This document shows positions 33,636 through 43,069 of a DNA stretch of 64,000 nucleotides, one piece after another. Numbering within the stretch: position 1 is the first letter of the stretch; each line of letters starts with the position of its first letter. The stretch lies in contig NZ_FOJM01000001.1 in NCBI RefSeq assembly GCF_900111825.1, positions 452,989-516,988 of the forward strand, written 5' to 3'. A program made the translations under genes and the position numbers. The notes under the pieces are model-generated. The model was not told the origin of the DNA and searched no databases. It worked only from the letters and a program-made list of their open reading frames with translations. The stretch comes from Pedobacter suwonensis. Its GTDB lineage: Bacteria > Bacteroidota > Bacteroidia > Sphingobacteriales > Sphingobacteriaceae.

Positions 33636-34832
33636 ATGAACATTTTAGTCATCAACTCAGGAAGTAGTTCCTTAAAATACCAGCTCTTTAAAATGCCTGA
33701 AAAAGCGCCCGTTTGCAGTGGGCTGGCAGAACGTATTGGCATTGAGGGTTCTTTTATCAAACATACCGTTTACAACAAAGGCGAAAAACAAAGCATCGAA
33801 GCGCCTGGTTTTGTTGCTGATCATGGCGAAGCCTTAAAGCAGGTTTTAGCTTTATTAACCGAGGGAGATTATGCCGTAATTGCAAGTCCTGATGATATTG
33901 CAGCTGTGGGCCACCGGGTAGTACATGGCGGTGAACATTTTTCCGGCCCGACAATAATTACAGAAGAGGTAAAGCATCAGATCAAAAAACTTTTTTCCCT
34001 TGCGCCATTGCACAACCCTGTGAACTATAAATGTATTGAAGTAGCAGAACAGACTTTTGTAAACGCAAAACAGATCGCGGTATTTGATACAGCTTTTCAC
34101 CAAACTATACCCGAACAAGCCTACCGTTACGCCATTCCGGAATCGTATTACAAAGAAGATGGCATTAGGGTATATGGGTTTCATGGCACGAGCCATAAAT
34201 ATGTAAGTGAGCAGGCGGTTAATTGGCTGGGGCAAAAAGAAAGTAAAATCATCAGTGTTCATTTAGGTAATGGTTGCAGCATCACAGCTATTAAAAATGG
34301 CAAATCAGTAGACACCAGTATGGGTTTTGGCCCTTTAAGCGGGTTAATGATGGGTACGCGGTCCGGAGATATTGATCCATCTGTTATTTTCCATTTAATG
34401 GAACATTCGGGATATACATTGTCACAATTGAGTACGCTGGTCAACAAACAGTCTGGCCTTCTGGGCGTGGGCGGCTCAAGCGATATGCGCGACATTAGAA
34501 AAATGGTAAATGAAGGCGAAAAAGCTGCTGTTTTAGCCATCAAACTATATGCCTACCGGATTAAGAAATTTATCGGGGCTTATGCTGCTGTATTGAATGG
34601 CATAGATGCTATCGTATTTACTGCAGGTGTTGGTGAAAATGACAGCCAGATGCGGGAAGCGGTATGCTCGGAACTCGAATATTTGGGCATTGAATTAGAT
34701 CAGGAACTTAATGCCACTTATAAAGGCGAATTAAAAGAGATTAGCGCCGTAACCGCCAAGGTAAAGATATTGGTAATTCCAACTAATGAAGAATATGAAA
34801 TTGCCCATCAATGTTTTGGGCTCGCGGGCTAA
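33636..34832 (+). CDS. ackA: acetate kinase
   Basis: 398 residues from the ATG at 33636 (MNILVINSGSSSLKYQLF), which starts at the ASKHA phosphate-1 loop; the longer in-frame start overlaps pta. It phosphorylates ADP with acetyl phosphate. Family marks: GHRVVHGG, AVFDTAFHQTIPEQAYRYAIP in pieces, YGFHGTSHKYV, HLGNGCSITA, GFGPLSGLMMGTRSGD and FTAGVGEND. It is the second gene of the pta-ackA operon. A perfect 12-base inverted repeat follows and separates it from the convergent VOC gene. Confidence 0.98.
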   Translation: MNILVINSGSSSLKYQLFKMPEKAPVCSGLAERIGIEGSFIKHTVYNKGEKQSIEAPGFVADHGEALKQVLALLTEGDYAVIASPDDIAAVGHRVVHGGEHFSGPTIITEEVKHQIKKLFSLAPLHNPVNYKCIEVAEQTFVNAKQIAVFDTAFHQTIPEQAYRYAIPESYYKEDGIRVYGFHGTSHKYVSEQAVNWLGQKESKIISVHLGNGCSITAIKNGKSVDTSMGFGPLSGLMMGTRSGDIDPSVIFHLMEHSGYTLSQLSTLVNKQSGLLGVGGSSDMRDIRKMVNEGEKAAVLAIKLYAYRIKKFIGAYAAVLNGIDAIVFTAGVGENDSQMREAVCSELEYLGIELDQELNATYKGELKEISAVTAKVKILVIPTNEEYEIAHQCFGLAG

Positions 34833-34897: not shown

Positions 34898-35281
34898 TCA
34901 GGCGTTTTGCAAAACAGACAAGATGTTACCTGACGGATCTCTGAACCAGGCAATAGCCGGGCCGCCATTTCCACGAGAAATACCTTTTTGATCGGTTTTG
35001 ATCGATTCCTGATGGTAAATCTCAAACTTAACTCCTTTGGCAATCAATTCGTCAACAGCCTGATCTATATTTTCGACCGGAAAGTTGAGTACTGTAAAAG
35101 TTGCCGGAACATGATTCGGTTTTGGATAAAGCAAGATATTTGAGGAACCGGAAACCACCACTTCAATCACTCCCATTGGGTTATCTTTAACTTCAAGGCC
35201 CAATACGTCCTGATAAAATTCTTTTGCTTTCTGTATATCATCTACAGAAAAGGAACTGAATGCTTTTGAGTTTTGTAACAT
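34898..35281 (-). CDS. VOC (glyoxalase/bleomycin resistance) family protein
   Basis: 127 residues with two beta-alpha-beta-beta-beta units: [23 protein letters not shown] at the start and [20 protein letters not shown] at the end, both standard VOC signatures. The metal-ligand Glu in the C-terminal motif is replaced (GNILSV), so it may not be a metalloenzyme. The role cannot be named; relatives range from glyoxalase-like enzymes to antibiotic-binding proteins. It is followed on the same strand by its own short spacer and the ackA inverted repeat. Confidence 0.88.
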
Positions 35282-35372: not shown

Positions 35373-35849
35373 TTAATTTTTCCATGCTCCCAACAGGCGC
35401 CTGATGATGACGATTTCAGCAATATGGTAAGCATTATGATCAGCAATCTGCAAAGCTTCAGTCAAAATACGCTGCCCATCACCATGTGGTATATGGCTGT
35501 ATAGGTCTGACGAATCCAAAAGCGCTATAAATGCCTGCAGATCATCATCTATTTGACTTAATGCGTTACTCCAGGTTGCTTCATCTTTTGGCGCAAGTTC
35601 TTTTGGCCAATATCCATCAGGCCATTTTGGCGATTGATGGCTTCCGTCTCTGCTAAATTCCAGCATATCCCACTGGGCAATTCTAATATGTTCTACCAAT
35701 TGCCAGATGCTGTATGGCAAATGATCGGGCTTTTCACCTAAAAGATCAAAAGGCAGACCGGCTACAGCATCCTTAAACCCTACATGCGCTCCGCCCCCTT
35801 GTAAAAGTTTTTTTAATTCAGTAATCAATATTGCGGTTTCATTTTCCAT
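35373..35849 (-). CDS. DinB/YfiT-like four-helix protein
   Basis: 159 residues from the ATG at 35849 (MENETAILITELKKLL). Four-helix DinB-like fold with the metal-site histidines in SIWQLVEHIRIAQWD and IADHNAYHIAEIVIIRRLLG. Members include thiol-dependent S-transferases and many of unknown function. The upstream extension to 35891 (MRMRIVLF) is rejected as a non-conserved hydrophobic leader. It may be relevant that EgtB, 2 kb away, also contains a DinB domain and that the family includes thiol (bacillithiol, mycothiol) transferases, but this is only proximity. Confidence 0.85.
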   Translation of the reverse strand: MENETAILITELKKLLQGGGAHVGFKDAVAGLPFDLLGEKPDHLPYSIWQLVEHIRIAQWDMLEFSRDGSHQSPKWPDGYWPKELAPKDEATWSNALSQIDDDLQAFIALLDSSDLYSHIPHGDGQRILTEALQIADHNAYHIAEIVIIRRLLGAWKN

Positions 35850-35949
35850 CATAATGTACTTCTTTAGAAAAAGAACAATTCTCATTCTCATAGGTTTGTA
35901 TAAAAATTGATTTTGGATAACAGCATTTACTTTTTAATGCATAATTCCT

Positions 35950-35961: not shown

Positions 35962-37035
35962 ATGAAGCGATCATTCCCCATTTTACAAAAGTACACTTAT
36001 CTGAACACCGCCAATTCTGGTATTTTATCGGAAAGCTTAGCAGAATGGCGGGTAAAGCACGACGAAGCATTTATGGCTGATGGGAGCATTTTCAGAATGA
36101 AAAATCTTACTCTTATCGCTAACCTCAAAAATAACATCGCTACACTTTTTGGATCAAAGCCCGAAAACACCTATCTCGTTCAAAATTTTTCAATAGGCTT
36201 CAATATTTTATTGAATGGGTTGGATAGCCATCATCGTTTTTTACTGTTAGCGGAAGAATATCCCTCGGTGAGTTTCCCCATAATGAGTATGGGTTTTGAT
36301 TATCATCAGGTAACCATTAATGAAAAATTAGAAGGGAATATCGTAAATGCCATTGAAAAATTTAAACCAACCATTCTGGCTTTTAGCATGGTACAATACA
36401 TCAGCGGTTTAAGAATGGATGAAGACTTTATCAAAAAAATAAAAACTGCCTATCCTGATCTGTTATTGGTCGGAGATGGTACTCAGTTTTTAGGCACTAC
36501 TGCCTTCAACTTTGAGAAATCGGGTTTAGATGCGTTGATTGGCAGTGGATACAAATGGCTTCTGGCCGGATATGGAAATGGTTATGTCATGTTATCCGAT
36601 CAGATGAAAGATGTAATCTATATAAAAAATAAGGCAGTTAGCATACCCTCAATGCCGTTTTTAAATGAAAAAGATCCTTTATCAATGTATTTTGAGCCTG
36701 GACACCTGGATACCTTAAACTTCGGCTCCTTAAATGAGAGTTTAAATGACCTGGGTGCAGTGGGTTTCGACGCCATTGAAAAGAATACGCAAGCGCTCAG
36801 TAATCAGGCAAGATTAGCATTAAATTCCAGAGGCTTAGTTCCCGATTGGATGCTTGACCGAAAGTATCAGTCTGCTATCATGAGTATGCCCCTGGATCAG
36901 GAAGTGGTAGATAAATTGATGTCAGCTAAAATCATTTGCTCTGCAAGGGGCGCCGGCACCAGAATTTCTTTCCATTATTATAATACGGAAGAAGATTTAA
37001 ACCGGCTGCTTGAGGTTTTAGATGACTGGCGTTAA
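35962..37035 (+). CDS. class V aminotransferase-fold PLP enzyme, candidate hercynylcysteine sulfoxide lyase
   Basis: 357 residues, fold type I, class V. The PLP lysine is in SGYKWLLAGYGNGY. The upstream Asp is in LLVGDGTQFLGT, and the N-terminal YLNTANSGI loop is typical. Relatives include cysteine desulfurases, isopenicillin N epimerase-like enzymes and EgtE, the C-S lyase that releases ergothioneine from hercynylcysteine sulfoxide. Its stop codon overlaps that of the convergent egtD (shared TTAA at 37032-37035). The egt operon otherwise lacks a lyase, so EgtE function is a good hypothesis. It is not proven: class V enzymes are functionally diverse and this gene is on the opposite strand. 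Confidence 0.85.
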   Translation: MKRSFPILQKYTYLNTANSGILSESLAEWRVKHDEAFMADGSIFRMKNLTLIANLKNNIATLFGSKPENTYLVQNFSIGFNILLNGLDSHHRFLLLAEEYPSVSFPIMSMGFDYHQVTINEKLEGNIVNAIEKFKPTILAFSMVQYISGLRMDEDFIKKIKTAYPDLLLVGDGTQFLGTTAFNFEKSGLDALIGSGYKWLLAGYGNGYVMLSDQMKDVIYIKNKAVSIPSMPFLNEKDPLSMYFEPGHLDTLNFGSLNESLNDLGAVGFDAIEKNTQALSNQARLALNSRGLVPDWMLDRKYQSAIMSMPLDQEVVDKLMSAKIICSARGAGTRISFHYYNTEEDLNRLLEVLDDWR

Positions 37036-38006
37036 TCTACCCTCCAAATGGCATCCACAAAATAATGCTTCTGATCAAAAAAGCTTTGAAGCGGCTTAAA
37101 ACCCGTTTTTGCTGCCAATTTATTAATGTCTTCCAAGGAATACTTTTGTGAAATTTCCATATGTATGTATTCATTTTCCGAAAAATGAATCACCTGCCGA
37201 CCTATATTCACGATCTGATTTTGCAAACTGATCAGATAACTTTTACAGGCTCCTGATGCCGGATCGTAACTGGCGTAATGCTCGAATTGATCGATGTTAA
37301 AATCACCATCGAGTTCTTTATTGATGCGACGAAGCAGATTAAGATTGAAAGACCTGGTAATTCCACCTTTATCATTATAGGCCGCAAGGATCTGCTGTGG
37401 ATTTTTTTTAAGGTCAAAGCCGATAATGACGAGGTCGTTTGGAGAAAGCAATTGCTTTAGCGAAAGACAGAAACTTTCAGCATCAGCAACAGTCATATTA
37501 CCAATATTTGCCCCCATAAACAATACTACTTTTCTACGATGGGAAAGTTCGGCGGCCTTTTGCAGCATGTCAAAATAATCGCCATTTAATCCCGTGATAT
37601 CCAACGAAGGCAGTTTTTTGGGTAGGTTTTCTTCCAGATCAGAAATAACGTGTTCAGAAATATCAATAGGAAAATAGCTAAATTCCATTTTGGCATCCAA
37701 CAGGGACTTTAATAGATGAATAGACTTGGTAGCATCGCCGGCGCCCAATTCGATCAGATCGAAAGCCGTCCCGTCTGCAGATATGGCCTGTGAAAGCTGT
37801 GCAGACTGATTTTGGAGAATCTCCATTTCGGCATTGGTTAGATAATACTCTTCCATTTCCATAATCTGCTGAAATATGCGGTCTCCGGTAGCATCATAAA
37901 AATACTTGGAAAGCATGAATTTAGGTTCAGATTGTAGCCCCGCCAGGGTTTCATGAAGAAATTGCGTTTTGTTGCTGGTTGATATTTCAATGGTAGTTGT
38001 GCTCAT
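37032..38006 (-). CDS. egtD: L-histidine N-alpha-methyltransferase
   Basis: 324 residues, the standard length for EgtD, which trimethylates histidine with three SAM to give hercynine, the first step of ergothioneine synthesis. Features: MEMEEYYLTNAEMEIL (the EYYLT-x-AE segment that holds the active-site Tyr), FDLIELGAGDATKS (SAM motif I), YFPIDIS, and FMGANIGNM. It is the last gene of the five-gene minus-strand operon, starting seven bases after the egtB stop. Its stop overlaps that of the convergent PLP enzyme gene, leaving no room for a terminator between them. Confidence 0.97.
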   Translation of the reverse strand: MSTTTIEISTSNKTQFLHETLAGLQSEPKFMLSKYFYDATGDRIFQQIMEMEEYYLTNAEMEILQNQSAQLSQAISADGTAFDLIELGAGDATKSIHLLKSLLDAKMEFSYFPIDISEHVISDLEENLPKKLPSLDITGLNGDYFDMLQKAAELSHRRKVVLFMGANIGNMTVADAESFCLSLKQLLSPNDLVIIGFDLKKNPQQILAAYNDKGGITRSFNLNLLRRINKELDGDFNIDQFEHYASYDPASGACKSYLISLQNQIVNIGRQVIHFSENEYIHMEISQKYSLEDINKLAAKTGFKPLQSFFDQKHYFVDAIWRVD

Positions 38007-38013
38007 AACATTT

Positions 38014-39162
38014 TTATTTTACCAGGCGTATGCCTGTATATTGCCATCTTAAATGGGGATGAAAAAAGTTTCTATACGTAATGCGTGAATGATTTTGAGG
38101 TGTAGCGATGGAAGCGCCACGAAGTACTTTTTGATTGACCATAAACTTGCCATTATATTCACCAATGGCACCTGGCGCCTTGCTGAAACCAGGATAAGCG
38201 AGGTAAGCGCTTTCGGTCCATTCCCACCTTTCACCCCAATTAAAATGTTTCGCCGCCACTTCCCAATCAAATTCGGTGGGCAAACGCATGCCTTTCCAAC
38301 TGGCATAAGCATAAGACTCATAATAGCTGATATGGCTAACCGGCGCATTTAAATCAACGGGCAAAAGTCCGCCTAGCGTATAATTAAACCATTCGCCATC
38401 CATCAGATGCCAATACATGGGTGAGGCGATGTGGTTACTTTTCACCCAATCCCAACCCTCTGAATGCCAATAGTTAAAATTTTCATAACCACCTGCATGG
38501 ATAAATTCCAAAAATTCTGCATTGGTTACCAATGTTTTACTGATGGCAAAATCGTGCAGATAAACCTGATGCCTGTTTAATTCATTATCGAAACTGAAAC
38601 CTGTCCCATCATAACCGATTTCGTAAACCCCTGCCGGAATGTCAATCCAGCCCGGCTCATTTTGGATCACTGAAACTTCTTTTTTATCTTTAACATAAAC
38701 CGGGAATAAAGGATTATTGCCCAAAATATATTTAATATCGGTTAACAGTAATTCCTGGTGCTGTTGCTCATGATTAAAACCTAAAACCAATAATTCTCTA
38801 ACCTCGTCATTTAACGCGTTAGCTAGAAAATTTACCATGGCTTCATCTACATAAGCCCGGTATTGATAAATTTCATTCACACCAGGGCGGCTTAAATTGC
38901 CACGATCGGTACGGATTACCCTATTGCCAACGGTTTCATAATAACTGTTGAAAACAAAATTATAATCATCATTATATACCTGATAATTAGACGAAAACGG
39001 TTTTAATATAAAGGTTTCGAAGAACCAGGTAGTGTGACCTAAATGCCATTTTGGCGGACTCACATCTACAACAGGTTGTACTACATAATCTTCAGTTTGT
39101 AAGGGTTCACAAACCTGTTCGGAATATTTCCTAATCTGTAAGTATTCTTCTACTAGTGTCAT
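38014..39162 (-). CDS. egtB: ergothioneine biosynthesis sulfoxide synthase EgtB
   Basis: 382 residues. An N-terminal DinB-like domain supplies the non-haem iron site: WHLGHTTWFFE (H43 likely ligand) and NHEQQHQEL (H131 and H135). The C-terminal formylglycine-generating-enzyme/sulfatase-modifying domain runs from about 170 to 382 and ends RNFFHPHLRWQYTGIRL. EgtB joins hercynine to a thiol donor with O2 and forms the sulfoxide. It is shorter than mycobacterial EgtB and there is no egtA or egtC here, so the donor is more likely cysteine itself than gamma-glutamylcysteine, as in type II EgtBs. The start codon shares a base with the upstream stop (TAATG). Confidence 0.95.
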   Translation of the reverse strand: MTLVEEYLQIRKYSEQVCEPLQTEDYVVQPVVDVSPPKWHLGHTTWFFETFILKPFSSNYQVYNDDYNFVFNSYYETVGNRVIRTDRGNLSRPGVNEIYQYRAYVDEAMVNFLANALNDEVRELLVLGFNHEQQHQELLLTDIKYILGNNPLFPVYVKDKKEVSVIQNEPGWIDIPAGVYEIGYDGTGFSFDNELNRHQVYLHDFAISKTLVTNAEFLEFIHAGGYENFNYWHSEGWDWVKSNHIASPMYWHLMDGEWFNYTLGGLLPVDLNAPVSHISYYESYAYASWKGMRLPTEFDWEVAAKHFNWGERWEWTESAYLAYPGFSKAPGAIGEYNGKFMVNQKVLRGASIATPQNHSRITYRNFFHPHLRWQYTGIRLVK

Positions 39163-40733
39163 TAATTTTTATCCAGGTAGTTTTTAAGGTCTGTGATGGT
39201 ATTAACATTCAGCGCTGTGGATTGTTTTCTCCGCATCATTAAAGCGTAAGAATTATTGAAACCAATGGGCTTGAGCCATTTGATTTTAAACCTTTTTTCA
39301 AATTCTGCACTTACATAACGGTAAGTTTTCTCTTTATCACGGGCCATTTCCTTTGCAATTATCGGATCTGGCTGCAATAACACCAACAAGCCTGTACCGG
39401 TGTATTCTGGATAAAAATCGATTTGATTATTCACAAGTGCGTCGAAACAGATCTTCGTTCCGCCCAGACCGGTTTTGGTGGAAACATTGTAATCCGTATA
39501 GCCTTTAATCAGCATGCTGTATATTTCAGCAAGAATATATTGCTCACCGAAAATCTTCGAACCGATCCGCACAGTGCCCCTATTTCCATTTTTAGATGTT
39601 TTATATAAGCCCTTGCTGATCAGGAAGTCTTTAGCTACCTGCTCAGGCTGTTGATGAAGATAATCAGTTCTATAGTTCAGATCGGTCATGACCGAATCGG
39701 TAATTTTACCGGAGAGCAGATTCAAAGTTTTTTCCAGTTCCGGAAATTGTTTTAACGCTTCATTCCTGACAATGGGCGCAGCAAAATAAGGCGGAAAAAT
39801 GTTTTTGTCATCCTTTAAGATCCTCAGGTCAAATGCCTTTAAACGTCCGTCAGTAGAATAACCGCTGATGACATCCAGTTCTTTCGCGTAAGCCGCCTTA
39901 TACATCACGGCATCGCTGATCACAATGGTATGGATTTTTAAGCCATAAGTTGATTTCAATCCGAGGTCTCCATCCTGCCTGCCCATAAATTCGGGTGTAA
40001 ACCCAGCTGTTAAAGTTGATCCATAAGCTGAGGGTAACGCATAAAATGCGCCTAATGCCAAAATCACCACAGGAAAAATGTACAAAGCTTTTCTCAATTT
40101 TCTGACATCCATTTTTTGAACAAGCGAAAGTAAAGCATCAAGTACAATCGCCAATAGGGCGGCCGGAATGGCTCCGCCCAAAATCATGTTCGTGTTATTG
40201 AGTGAGATGCCGCCAAAAATAAATTCACCCAGGCCTCCTGCAGCAATAAATGAAGCCAATGTAGCCACTCCTACATTAATTACAGTCGCGGTACGGATGC
40301 CTGCTAAAATAACGGGCATGGCGAGGGGTAACTCCACTTTTAACAAAACCTGGCTTTTACTCATCCCCATGGCCCTGGCTGCCTCTTTAACATGTAAATC
40401 GATACCGATAATGCCCGTATAAGTATTTCTGATGATCGGTAGCAAAGCATAAATCAGCAGGGCCACAATCGCTGGTTTGGCACCGATGCCCAAAACAGGA
40501 ATCATAAACCCCAGAAGAGCAATACTCGGAATGGTTTGTAATATACCGGCAACACCCAAAACCATTCCTGAAAGTTTCCGCTTTCTCGCGATGAGTATGC
40601 CTAATGGTAAACCGACGGCAATAGCAAGGGTTAAAGAAATAAAAGTTAGCCCTACATGTTGTAAGGTTTGGCTGAACAATTTATCAGACTGCCCAGACAT
40701 AAACTGCCATAAGGTCTGCTGTTGCTCATTCAT
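39162..40733 (-). CDS. egtU: fused ABC permease and circularly permuted substrate-binding domain, EgtU/OpuC type
   Basis: 523 residues. Residues 1 to about 215 form a binding-protein-dependent permease with the EAA loop (EAARAMGMSKSQVLLK, 117-132). A further helix at about 222-240 leads to an external OpuAC-like substrate-binding domain. That domain is in swapped order. Residues 251-385 (GFTPEFMGRQDG, YSTDGRLKAFDLRILKDDK, FPPYFAAP) are the second half of the usual fold. Residues 396-523 (TVRIGSKIFGEQYILAEI, GLGGTK, YPEYTGTG, GFNNSYAL) are the usual first half. Family transporters carry betaines, choline or, for EgtUV, ergothioneine. Sharing an operon with egtB and egtD makes ergothioneine or hercynine the likely cargo. 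The gene symbol is context-based. Confidence 0.9.
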   Translation of the reverse strand: MNEQQQTLWQFMSGQSDKLFSQTLQHVGLTFISLTLAIAVGLPLGILIARKRKLSGMVLGVAGILQTIPSIALLGFMIPVLGIGAKPAIVALLIYALLPIIRNTYTGIIGIDLHVKEAARAMGMSKSQVLLKVELPLAMPVILAGIRTATVINVGVATLASFIAAGGLGEFIFGGISLNNTNMILGGAIPAALLAIVLDALLSLVQKMDVRKLRKALYIFPVVILALGAFYALPSAYGSTLTAGFTPEFMGRQDGDLGLKSTYGLKIHTIVISDAVMYKAAYAKELDVISGYSTDGRLKAFDLRILKDDKNIFPPYFAAPIVRNEALKQFPELEKTLNLLSGKITDSVMTDLNYRTDYLHQQPEQVAKDFLISKGLYKTSKNGNRGTVRIGSKIFGEQYILAEIYSMLIKGYTDYNVSTKTGLGGTKICFDALVNNQIDFYPEYTGTGLLVLLQPDPIIAKEMARDKEKTYRYVSAEFEKRFKIKWLKPIGFNNSYALMMRRKQSTALNVNTITDLKNYLDKN

Positions 40734-41685
40734 GCTGTTGTGCGTTTCGATATTGGTTGAATGCCGTTGTTAACTGCCCGAAATTGACGGACTTGACCGT
40801 ATTGCTCGCGTCTGATACAAACAGCTCATCCCCATCCTTTTTCCGTAATGATTCCATAGCTTCCCAGATACTTAAACCAGCGGTTTCACTTTTTCCCTCG
40901 TAATTTATTTCTTCAGGTAGATAACACCAAATATCCTGTATATTAACCACTTTAAATTCTAACACCAATCTTTGTCCGGCAAGAAAATTCTTTGCGATAT
41001 CATTTATTGGCTGAAATAATAATTCTTTGGGCGTACCGATCTGAACCACCTCACCCTTATCCAACAAACAGATCCGGTCTGCAAGCTCAAAAGCTTCCAG
41101 TACATCATGTGTCACCATCACAATCGTTTTCCTTCTCAACTCTTCTAAAGCTTTAAATTCTTTTTGGATACTGGTTCGGGTAAGATTATCTAAGGCTCCA
41201 AATGGCTCATCCATCAACAATACCGGTGGATCGGCAATCAGCGCACGTGCCAGACCTACACGTTGTTGCTGTCCGCCACTTAATTCATGCGGATACATTG
41301 CTAAGGTACTTTCCGGAAGATGAAGTTTTTCAATAAGCGCTTTTGTGTGGCTTTTAGTTTTTGCCTTATCCCATTTCAACATATCCGGTATAAGTGCAAT
41401 ATTTTCAGCTATGGTATAATGTGGAAAAAGCCCGATATTCTGCATCACGTAACCGATTCCTTTTCGCAACACATCGGGATCCTGGTCGGTTACATTTTTA
41501 CCATTGATCAGAATCTGTCCTGCGTCGGGTTCAATTAAACGATTGATCATTTTTAAAGTGGTGGTTTTACCACAGCCGCTGGTACCCAGCAATACCAGGG
41601 TTTCTCCGCTGGCTACATTAAAAGAGACTTGCTTTACCGCCTGGGTATTGCCAAATTTCTTGCTTATCTCTTTTAATTCAATCAT
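40726..41685 (-). CDS. egtV: ABC transporter ATP-binding protein, EgtV/OpuCA type
   Basis: 319 residues. The ATPase domain has Walker A LLGTSGCGKTTT, a Q-loop in GYVMQNIGLFPH, signature LSGGQQQRVGLARAL, Walker B VLLMDEPFGALD and switch His in MVTHD. The C-terminal 90 residues (from about 225, FLAGQRLVLEFKVVN onward) form a single degenerate CBS-like regulatory segment rather than the usual pair, so osmotic gating as in OpuA is doubtful. It overlaps the permease gene by eight bases and starts one base after the reductase stop, so its stoichiometry is tied to both. It powers uptake through the neighbouring fused protein. Confidence 0.93.
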   Translation of the reverse strand: MIELKEISKKFGNTQAVKQVSFNVASGETLVLLGTSGCGKTTTLKMINRLIEPDAGQILINGKNVTDQDPDVLRKGIGYVMQNIGLFPHYTIAENIALIPDMLKWDKAKTKSHTKALIEKLHLPESTLAMYPHELSGGQQQRVGLARALIADPPVLLMDEPFGALDNLTRTSIQKEFKALEELRRKTIVMVTHDVLEAFELADRICLLDKGEVVQIGTPKELLFQPINDIAKNFLAGQRLVLEFKVVNIQDIWCYLPEEINYEGKSETAGLSIWEAMESLRKKDGDELFVSDASNTVKSVNFGQLTTAFNQYRNAQQHE

Positions 41686-41686
41686 A

Positions 41687-43069
41687 TTATCTATCGAGTT
41701 TCATAAATAGGTTATTCAGCGATTCGGTATACGTAGGATGAGCAAGAACGCAGTACCTGATCCTGTCATAAGTGATATCTCCTTCCATGGCCATCTGCAA
41801 AACAGACATGATTTCACCGCCTTCCGAAGCCAGAATAGCTGCTCCTAAAATCTTTTTCGTCTCCGGATCTACAACCGCTTTCATCAAGCCCAGTGTCTCG
41901 TTGGTTTCTATCCCGCGTGCCACCTGCGACATTGGAATCACCGCTATTTCGTAATTTAATTTCTTTTCTTTTGCTTCCTTTTCCGAAATGCCGATTCTAC
42001 CCAATTGCGGGTCGGTGAACATGCAATAAGGTACCGGGCGATCCTGAATAGAATATTTAGTCCCTTCAATCAGGTTACGGTAAACAATTGTGTAATCGTT
42101 ATAGGCAATATGCGTAAAGGCAGGCCCACCTTTTACGTCTCCTAATGCGTAAATTCCTTTAATATTGGTTTCCAGTTTTTCATTCACCATTACATGGCCT
42201 TTATCATCCAATTTAACACCACAATTTTCGAGTCCCAGATCAGCGGTTTGAGGTACGCGTCCGGCTGCAACGAGCAAATGACTTGCCGTTATATCCTTTT
42301 TAGTTTTACCGGAACGGACTGTTATATGAAGCTGTTTTTTATCCTGATCGATTTTTTCAACCTTTACATCCGTAATAATTTCGATCTTCTCATCAGTTAA
42401 AATCTCTGTTAACGCTGAAGAGATGTCTTCATCTTCTTTTGCCAGTATACCCGCTGACTTTTCCAGAATGGTAACTCTACTACCAAAACGGCTAAACATT
42501 TGCCCAAACTCCAAACCAATATAATTACCACCAATTACAACTAAATGCTCCGGAACCGTTTCCAAATCAAGGATTGTTGTTGAGGTAAGATAATCAATTT
42601 GATCCAATCCTGCTATATCGGGTATAGCTGTTTTTGCACCGGTATTGATAAAAATCCAATCTGCAGTTACCTTTTCTTCTCCGCCATCATTAAGGGTAAT
42701 GGTTAATTCCTGTTCTGCACTGAATTTTGCCGTTCCGAAAATAAGCTTGAGTCCATTTGTTTCAGTAATTCCTTTTTCTGATGAAGACCTGAATTGTTCT
42801 ACAATATCATTTTTTCGTTGGACAATCTTCTTAAAGTCTATTTTAACAGATCCAATATCAACGCCTAAAGCTGAAGCTTTTTTAGCCTGGTGTACAGCCT
42901 TTGCAGAGGCAATCATTGCTTTGGTCGGTGTACAGCCATCATTGATACAGGTACCGCCAACCAATCTTTTTTCAATAAGAGCTGTTCTTTTACCGGCTTC
43001 GGCTAGTTTTTTAGCCAATGGTACACCGGCTTGCCCCGCCCCAATAATTATTGCGTCGTAATGTTTCAT
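41687..43069 (-). CDS. pyridine nucleotide-disulfide oxidoreductase (FAD), possible ergothioneine-disulfide reductase
   Basis: 460 residues, the size of glutathione/mercuric reductase-type flavoenzymes. FAD motif IIIGAGQAG (8-16), redox pair C41 and C46 in GGTCINDGCTPTK, NAD(P) motif VIGGNYIGLEFG, second FAD motif GIYALGDVKGG, and a C-terminal dimer domain with the His-Glu dyad HPTYTE (H444, E449). No MerA-type vicinal Cys pair at the end. It is annotated in relatives as mercuric-reductase-like. It is the first gene of the operon and is coupled to egtV by a one-base gap. A dedicated reductant for oxidised ergothioneine is my inference; mycothiol or other low-molecular-weight disulfides are alternatives. 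Confidence 0.92.
   Translation of the reverse strand: MKHYDAIIIGAGQAGVPLAKKLAEAGKRTALIEKRLVGGTCINDGCTPTKAMIASAKAVHQAKKASALGVDIGSVKIDFKKIVQRKNDIVEQFRSSSEKGITETNGLKLIFGTAKFSAEQELTITLNDGGEEKVTADWIFINTGAKTAIPDIAGLDQIDYLTSTTILDLETVPEHLVVIGGNYIGLEFGQMFSRFGSRVTILEKSAGILAKEDEDISSALTEILTDEKIEIITDVKVEKIDQDKKQLHITVRSGKTKKDITASHLLVAAGRVPQTADLGLENCGVKLDDKGHVMVNEKLETNIKGIYALGDVKGGPAFTHIAYNDYTIVYRNLIEGTKYSIQDRPVPYCMFTDPQLGRIGISEKEAKEKKLNYEIAVIPMSQVARGIETNETLGLMKAVVDPETKKILGAAILASEGGEIMSVLQMAMEGDITYDRIRYCVLAHPTYTESLNNLFMKLDR

Follow-up and report, generated by a model that had tools for sequence, protein, structure and literature searches.

A class V PLP enzyme convergent with egtD as a candidate ergothioneine C-S lyase in Pedobacter

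The egtD gene of Pedobacter suwonensis overlaps, tail-to-tail, a gene on the opposite strand that encodes a class V PLP enzyme, and this arrangement is conserved in many relatives. We propose, with a probability of roughly one half, that the enzyme is a C-S β-lyase which acts on hercynylcysteine sulfoxide, is non-orthologous to the recognised EgtE and is probably not dedicated to this step. The proposal draws on gene order and its conservation, the fold, a set of invariant residues, the want of a conserved desulfurase cysteine and the lack of an EgtC match in the genome, observations from which we infer the substrate and the reaction.

Many bacteria carry egtB and egtD without a recognisable EgtE. 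In the literature we found no work joining ergothioneine, Bacteroidetes, EgtB and EgtD, and the papers on ergothioneine and Pedobacter that we found are, by title, not about a candidate lyase. A candidate that is conserved among soil bacteria which can be cultured renders the last step of ergothioneine synthesis testable; if the assignment is true, annotation could call complete ergothioneine pathways in Bacteroidota.

The egt locus and the need for a lyase

The window, the whole 64,000-nucleotide stretch of DNA that was analysed, contains the PLP gene at 35962–37035 on the plus strand (357 aa; Aminotran_5, E 1.9e-14). Directly against it on the minus strand, as a sequence-only reading of this DNA had noted, lies egtD, which encodes the histidine N-alpha-methyltransferase (37032–38006; Methyltransf_33, E 2.8e-97; TIGR03438, 285.7 bits with a cut-off of 290.9). 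On the same strand lie egtB, encoding the sulfoxide synthase (38014–39162; TIGR03440, 545.6 bits, cut-off 360), a gene for a permease fused to an OpuAC substrate-binding domain (39162–40733; BPD_transp_1 and OpuAC), one for an ABC ATPase (40726–41685; ABC_tran; proV-type, 316.4 bits, cut-off 326.6) and one for a flavin disulfide oxidoreductase, FADox (41687–43069; Pyr_redox_2 and dimerisation domain; PRK06370-type, 524 bits, cut-off 629). The upstream neighbours of the PLP gene, both on the minus strand, encode a DinB-superfamily protein (35373–35891; DinB_2, E 1e-7) and a glyoxalase/VOC-family protein (34898–35281; Glyoxalase, E 7.3e-11). Profile matches reveal no lyase within the FADox-egtV-egtU-egtB-egtD run, in agreement with the same reading.

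We use EgtU and EgtV as putative names for the permease-OpuAC protein and the ABC ATPase; the available portion of the EgtUV paper's text contains no occurrence of EgtB, EgtD or an oxidoreductase (PMC9732360). The operon of these two genes with egtBD is conserved in relatives, with the complete five-gene set present in 19 of the 39 egtD-bearing loci from a draw of genomes across the family. At 37032–43069 of the window, synthesis genes are grouped with genes for what is likely an ABC importer of the ergothioneine type and for a flavin disulfide reductase.

A search of the whole genome with the EgtC model gave no match. By analogy with known pathways, this suggests that EgtB should use cysteine directly and leave hercynylcysteine sulfoxide, so that a lyase would be needed. 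The earlier claim that the product of EgtB and EgtD requires one is borne out to this extent, EgtB scoring above its model cut-off and EgtD just under. In Mycobacterium smegmatis, hercynylcysteine sulfoxide is cleaved by the PLP enzyme EgtE, which releases pyruvate and ammonia along with a sulfenic acid; a reductant is also required, according to the accessible part of the report (PMC4493562). By our proposal, EgtD followed by a cysteine-using EgtB would produce hercynylcysteine sulfoxide; in Pedobacter and some Flavobacteriaceae the PLP enzyme would cleave it, releasing pyruvate and ammonia and leaving ergothioneine sulfenic acid; and reduction of the sulfenic acid would yield ergothioneine. 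FADox could serve as a reductase here, with the sulfenic or a disulfide form as its possible target.

Conservation of the convergent pair in Pedobacter

The two stop codons share bases 37033–37034, as previously described: the TAA of the PLP gene occupies 37033–37035 on the plus strand, and that of egtD is read from 37034 to 37032 on the minus strand, giving a convergent 4-nt overlap, TTAA, at 37032–37035. Among the eight convergent pairs in the window (ORFs of at least 120 aa), this is the only one that overlaps. Such overlap is nevertheless not exceptional: in the loci of relatives we counted 181 further convergent pairs, of which 20 overlap, five of them by exactly 4 nt (simple ORF calls). 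We detected neither a terminator-like site nor an inverted repeat at 36990–37080. The accompanying claim that palindromes separate the other convergent pairs of the window failed, since the pairs at 34832/34898 and 58971/58991 are also without an inverted repeat of at least 8 bp. The 4-nt overlap between the PLP gene and egtD recurs in 22 of the 24 loci read, the window among them. Of 35 named Pedobacter loci, 23 show it, and the spacing lies between -13 and +21 nt in 34 of the 35; some genomes are common to the two sets. Convergent overlap as such is ordinary, and its conservation between the PLP gene and egtD is not. From the arrangement of the genes, their transcripts may be expected to overlap, which would bring them into antisense contact.

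Of 145 genomes in the genus, 79 encode the enzyme and 88 encode EgtD; 70 have both, nine the enzyme only, 18 EgtD only and 48 neither (Fisher p 1.7e-14, a value without phylogenetic correction). Where both are present, 43 of the 70 genomes have the PLP gene and egtD side by side and convergent, with at most 41 bases between match ends in 42 and 400 in the remaining one. Within Pedobacter the tail-to-tail arrangement is retained at 53–81% protein identity, with flanks that differ in some loci, and the VOC-DinB-PLP-egtDBUV-FADox block occurs in different surroundings depending on the genome (G000 and G061 vs G013 and G035), indicating that its integrity does not merely reflect shared chromosomal order. 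In one large EgtD clade, 40 of 41 genomes carry the enzyme, including those where the two genes are unlinked.

These observations bear on the main rival explanation, in which the enzyme is a general β-lyase for cyst(e)ine or cysteine S-conjugates in sulfur metabolism or detoxification, its proximity to the egt genes is inherited, and EgtE activity comes from other PLP lyases. We regard this as possible, if on balance doubtful. It is favoured by five Pedobacter genomes (G181, G195, G088, G150 and G201; 97–99% complete) that keep the enzyme with no EgtD anywhere, a state corresponding to three to four changes on trees of 26 loci. In these genomes the PLP gene lies between ackA and k2, the egt, DinB and VOC genes being gone from the site, and pairwise dN/dS values, where dS could be estimated, are 0.05–0.10. 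Its retention under such purifying selection means that the enzyme is useful without egtBD, and we consider it probably not dedicated to the EgtE step, with another function in cells that lack these genes. A further genome, G204, is EgtD-less in the genus table and was excluded as evidence of retention (78% complete, with a contig that ends just past the gene). The P. suwonensis genome also has, on contig C36, a match at 83% to the cystathionine-lyase-like c2 described below, together with matches to other PLP lyases, which could supply EgtE activity under this explanation. The persistence of the tail-to-tail pair despite sequence divergence and differing flanks argues against inherited proximity, as does the near-constant presence of the enzyme in the large EgtD clade, even where it is unlinked.

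A role in another ergothioneine or low-molecular-weight thiol step, namely turnover of S-conjugates with DinB and VOC instead of synthesis, appears unlikely to us. In its favour, VOC and/or DinB genes flank the enzyme and remain by the egt operon in several genomes whose PLP gene is located away from it (G094, G143, G189 and G164); the five egt-less genomes, however, keep the enzyme at a site from which both are missing. Taken together, these patterns make VOC and DinB look more closely tied to the egt genes than the PLP gene is.

Other PLP enzymes also occur near the egt genes. Some Pedobacter that lack the enzyme carry another class V protein, which we call k17; it lies beside the egt operon, at its FADox end, in 11 loci (for example L136:3238-4407). 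EgtE-like by profile, k17 scores 140 bits with TIGR04343 and 155 bits with SufS. We considered whether it might be the usual EgtE of the group and rejected this: the family is broad, with relatives on many plasmids, and shows no enrichment with EgtD in the genus (22 of 88 genomes with EgtD vs 8 of 57 without, p 0.14; matches of at least 34% identity kept, those at 24–30% left out). In a draw of genomes across the class, 13 of 18 full-length k17 carriers have EgtD, none adjacent (identity of at least 36%, three weak matches at 28–29% left out). Of the 88 EgtD-bearing genomes of the genus, 84 have the enzyme or k17, compared with 17 of the 57 EgtD-less ones; the complementarity of the two is at the level of clades and fails an independent-pairs test, with a median p of 1 from six pairs on starred branches. 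A cystathionine-lyase-like gene, c2, stands head-to-head with egtB in eight of the 39 egtD-bearing loci (L097, L101, L104, L105, L108, L112, L114 and L117); it is a possible lyase, and shared chromosomal order could explain its placement too.

Distribution outside the genus

In the draw across the family (121 genomes), the enzyme is found in 25 genomes, EgtD in 56 and both in 14, where about 11.6 would be expected from the margins. This first suggested that the enzyme and EgtD are not associated, a view that changed with the full genus of 145 genomes and the class draw. Within the family of P. suwonensis but outside its genus, eight of 17 carriers have EgtD and in none of the eight are the genes adjacent. 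The carriers in genus g16 lend further weight to a general lyase, seven of nine having no EgtD; in them the gene lies in a putatively rbfA/aat-like context.

The class draw of 395 genomes contains the enzyme in 14, EgtD in 69 and both in seven, so that the enzyme is absent from 62 of the 69 EgtD-bearing genomes. Eight of the carriers lie outside the family of P. suwonensis; three of these have EgtD (G412, G529 and G613), and in each the PLP gene converges on a neighbouring egtD, across gaps of 86, 405 and 577. In a flavobacterial clade among the named loci, comprising Aquimarina, Pareuzebyella and MAGs at 42–44% identity, egtD is convergent within at most 8 kb in eight of nine rows, the ninth contig ending first. 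A DUF427-like gene mostly lies between the two, and in L284 egtD is 6.9 kb off. Linked homologues in other families have 30–44% identity overall, and recurrence of the egtD neighbourhood at this distance again speaks against a general lyase that owes its position to inheritance. In a PLP tree of 97 rows, unlinked rows fall between the two linked groups.

The expectation that homologues accompany egtB and egtD in other genomes was therefore confirmed in part: it holds for the linked Pedobacter genomes, the distant class members and the flavobacterial clade, and egt association is lacking in the family outside the genus and in the five EgtD-less Pedobacter genomes. We tentatively suggest, with a little less than even confidence, that these proteins are ergothioneine C-S lyases of Bacteroidota which form a non-orthologous family not recognised before. 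Their genes, tail-to-tail with egtD across Pedobacter, recur close to egtDB in Flavobacteriaceae and in a single instance in one more family. In these lineages they would complete a minimal cysteine-using egtBD pathway, and different class V or other PLP lyases would take this place elsewhere.

Three further observations were made during these comparisons. A putatively DUF427-like protein of 93 aa recurs by the egt genes of Sphingobacteriaceae as well as those of Flavobacteriaceae (L087:3761-4042 and L274:9535-9816). The PLP protein of the window has a branch of 0.17–0.22 compared with 0.03–0.08 for its nearest relatives, a lengthening that its egtD does not share, and its dN/dS is still about 0.1. 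Finally, a PLP homologue from a record titled Flavobacteriaceae bacterium PS02337 (L233) falls inside the Pedobacter clade, through transfer, mislabelling or contamination.

Fold, active site and relation to known lyases

The AlphaFold model of the enzyme has a pLDDT of 93.6. Its best solved fold among the matches listed is the cyst(e)ine C-S lyase C-DES, with a Z-score of 38.8, followed by cysteine desulfurases at up to 37.6; C-DES as the closest solved fold is also what a general lyase would lead one to expect. The class V PLP fold and the Schiff-base Lys, Asp and Gln of EgtE- and Egt2-type enzymes are present (Aminotran_5; Lys198, Asp172 and Gln175), and neither these three residues nor Tyr100 and Arg334 vary across 44 sequences. 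At the position of Tyr100, both C-DES and SufS have a His in the alignments. In M. smegmatis EgtE and Neurospora crassa Egt2, Tyr106 and Tyr134, respectively, stack on PLP, and Arg348 and Arg438 serve the substrate carboxylate, as given in the available part of PMC10805701. Tyr100 and Arg334 may be the counterparts of these residues. The PLP and carboxylate-type residues are equally invariant in EgtD-less carriers, so that they indicate the chemistry and not the substrate. A signature of residues 176, 253, 254, 327 and 336, chosen post hoc to distinguish linked from distant EgtD-less carriers, was dropped, as it is kept in the EgtD-less G088 and G150 and lost in some genomes with EgtD.

A cysteine desulfurase or kynureninase-type enzyme would share the class V fold, and among the matches listed the best ones, by sequence and by fold, are to SufS and C-DES. 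Even so, we think such an activity very improbable. The SufS model scores 22.5 bits on the enzyme against a cut-off of 475.1, Tyr100 replaces the His, and no Cys is found among the invariant or nearly invariant columns of the 44 sequences, Cys326 in the C-terminal loop of the window protein being Ala or Val in some relatives. The lack of a conserved cysteine argues against a desulfurase, an activity that the sequence-only reading had named as counter-evidence, and the sequence fits a C-S lyase.

The EgtE model itself, TIGR04343 (cut-off 400 bits), gave no match to the enzyme by hmmscan at E 0.001, and in a search of the genome it matched three other places, all under the cut-off and none at the PLP gene. 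The original suggestion of a missing EgtE is supported in part, with the conserved egtD neighbourhood and the C-S-lyase residues in its favour, and the position outside the EgtE model and the egt-less carriers against it.

Among characterised enzymes, C-DES (1ELQ, 1N31) is a class V C-S lyase that superimposes on the enzyme over 349 residues at 2.7 Å, with 20% identity and a His at the position of Tyr100. We know of no link between C-DES and ergothioneine genes. Egt2 of N. crassa represents a separate class V answer to the same step, with Tyr134 on PLP in the part of PMC10805701 available; it is not among the matches listed in the fold searches, nor is M. smegmatis EgtE among those listed in the Z-scored search, which excludes neither. 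Like the enzyme, k17 is a class V PLP protein beside the egt operon, but the two belong to different families and k17 sits at the far, FADox end. M. smegmatis EgtE (8IRY, 8IRZ and 8IS0; TIGR04343) has the same class V PLP fold as our candidate, with a Foldseek TM of 0.81–0.82, and the Lys, Asp and Gln in common with it. The two would also share an Arg of the C-terminal motif and a Tyr where desulfurases have His, judging from the C-DES/SufS alignment and the accessible text of PMC10805701. In contrast, the two proteins have only about 15% identity, the candidate falls outside the EgtE profile, and its gene, unlike that of M. smegmatis EgtE, stands convergent with egtD and outside the operon.
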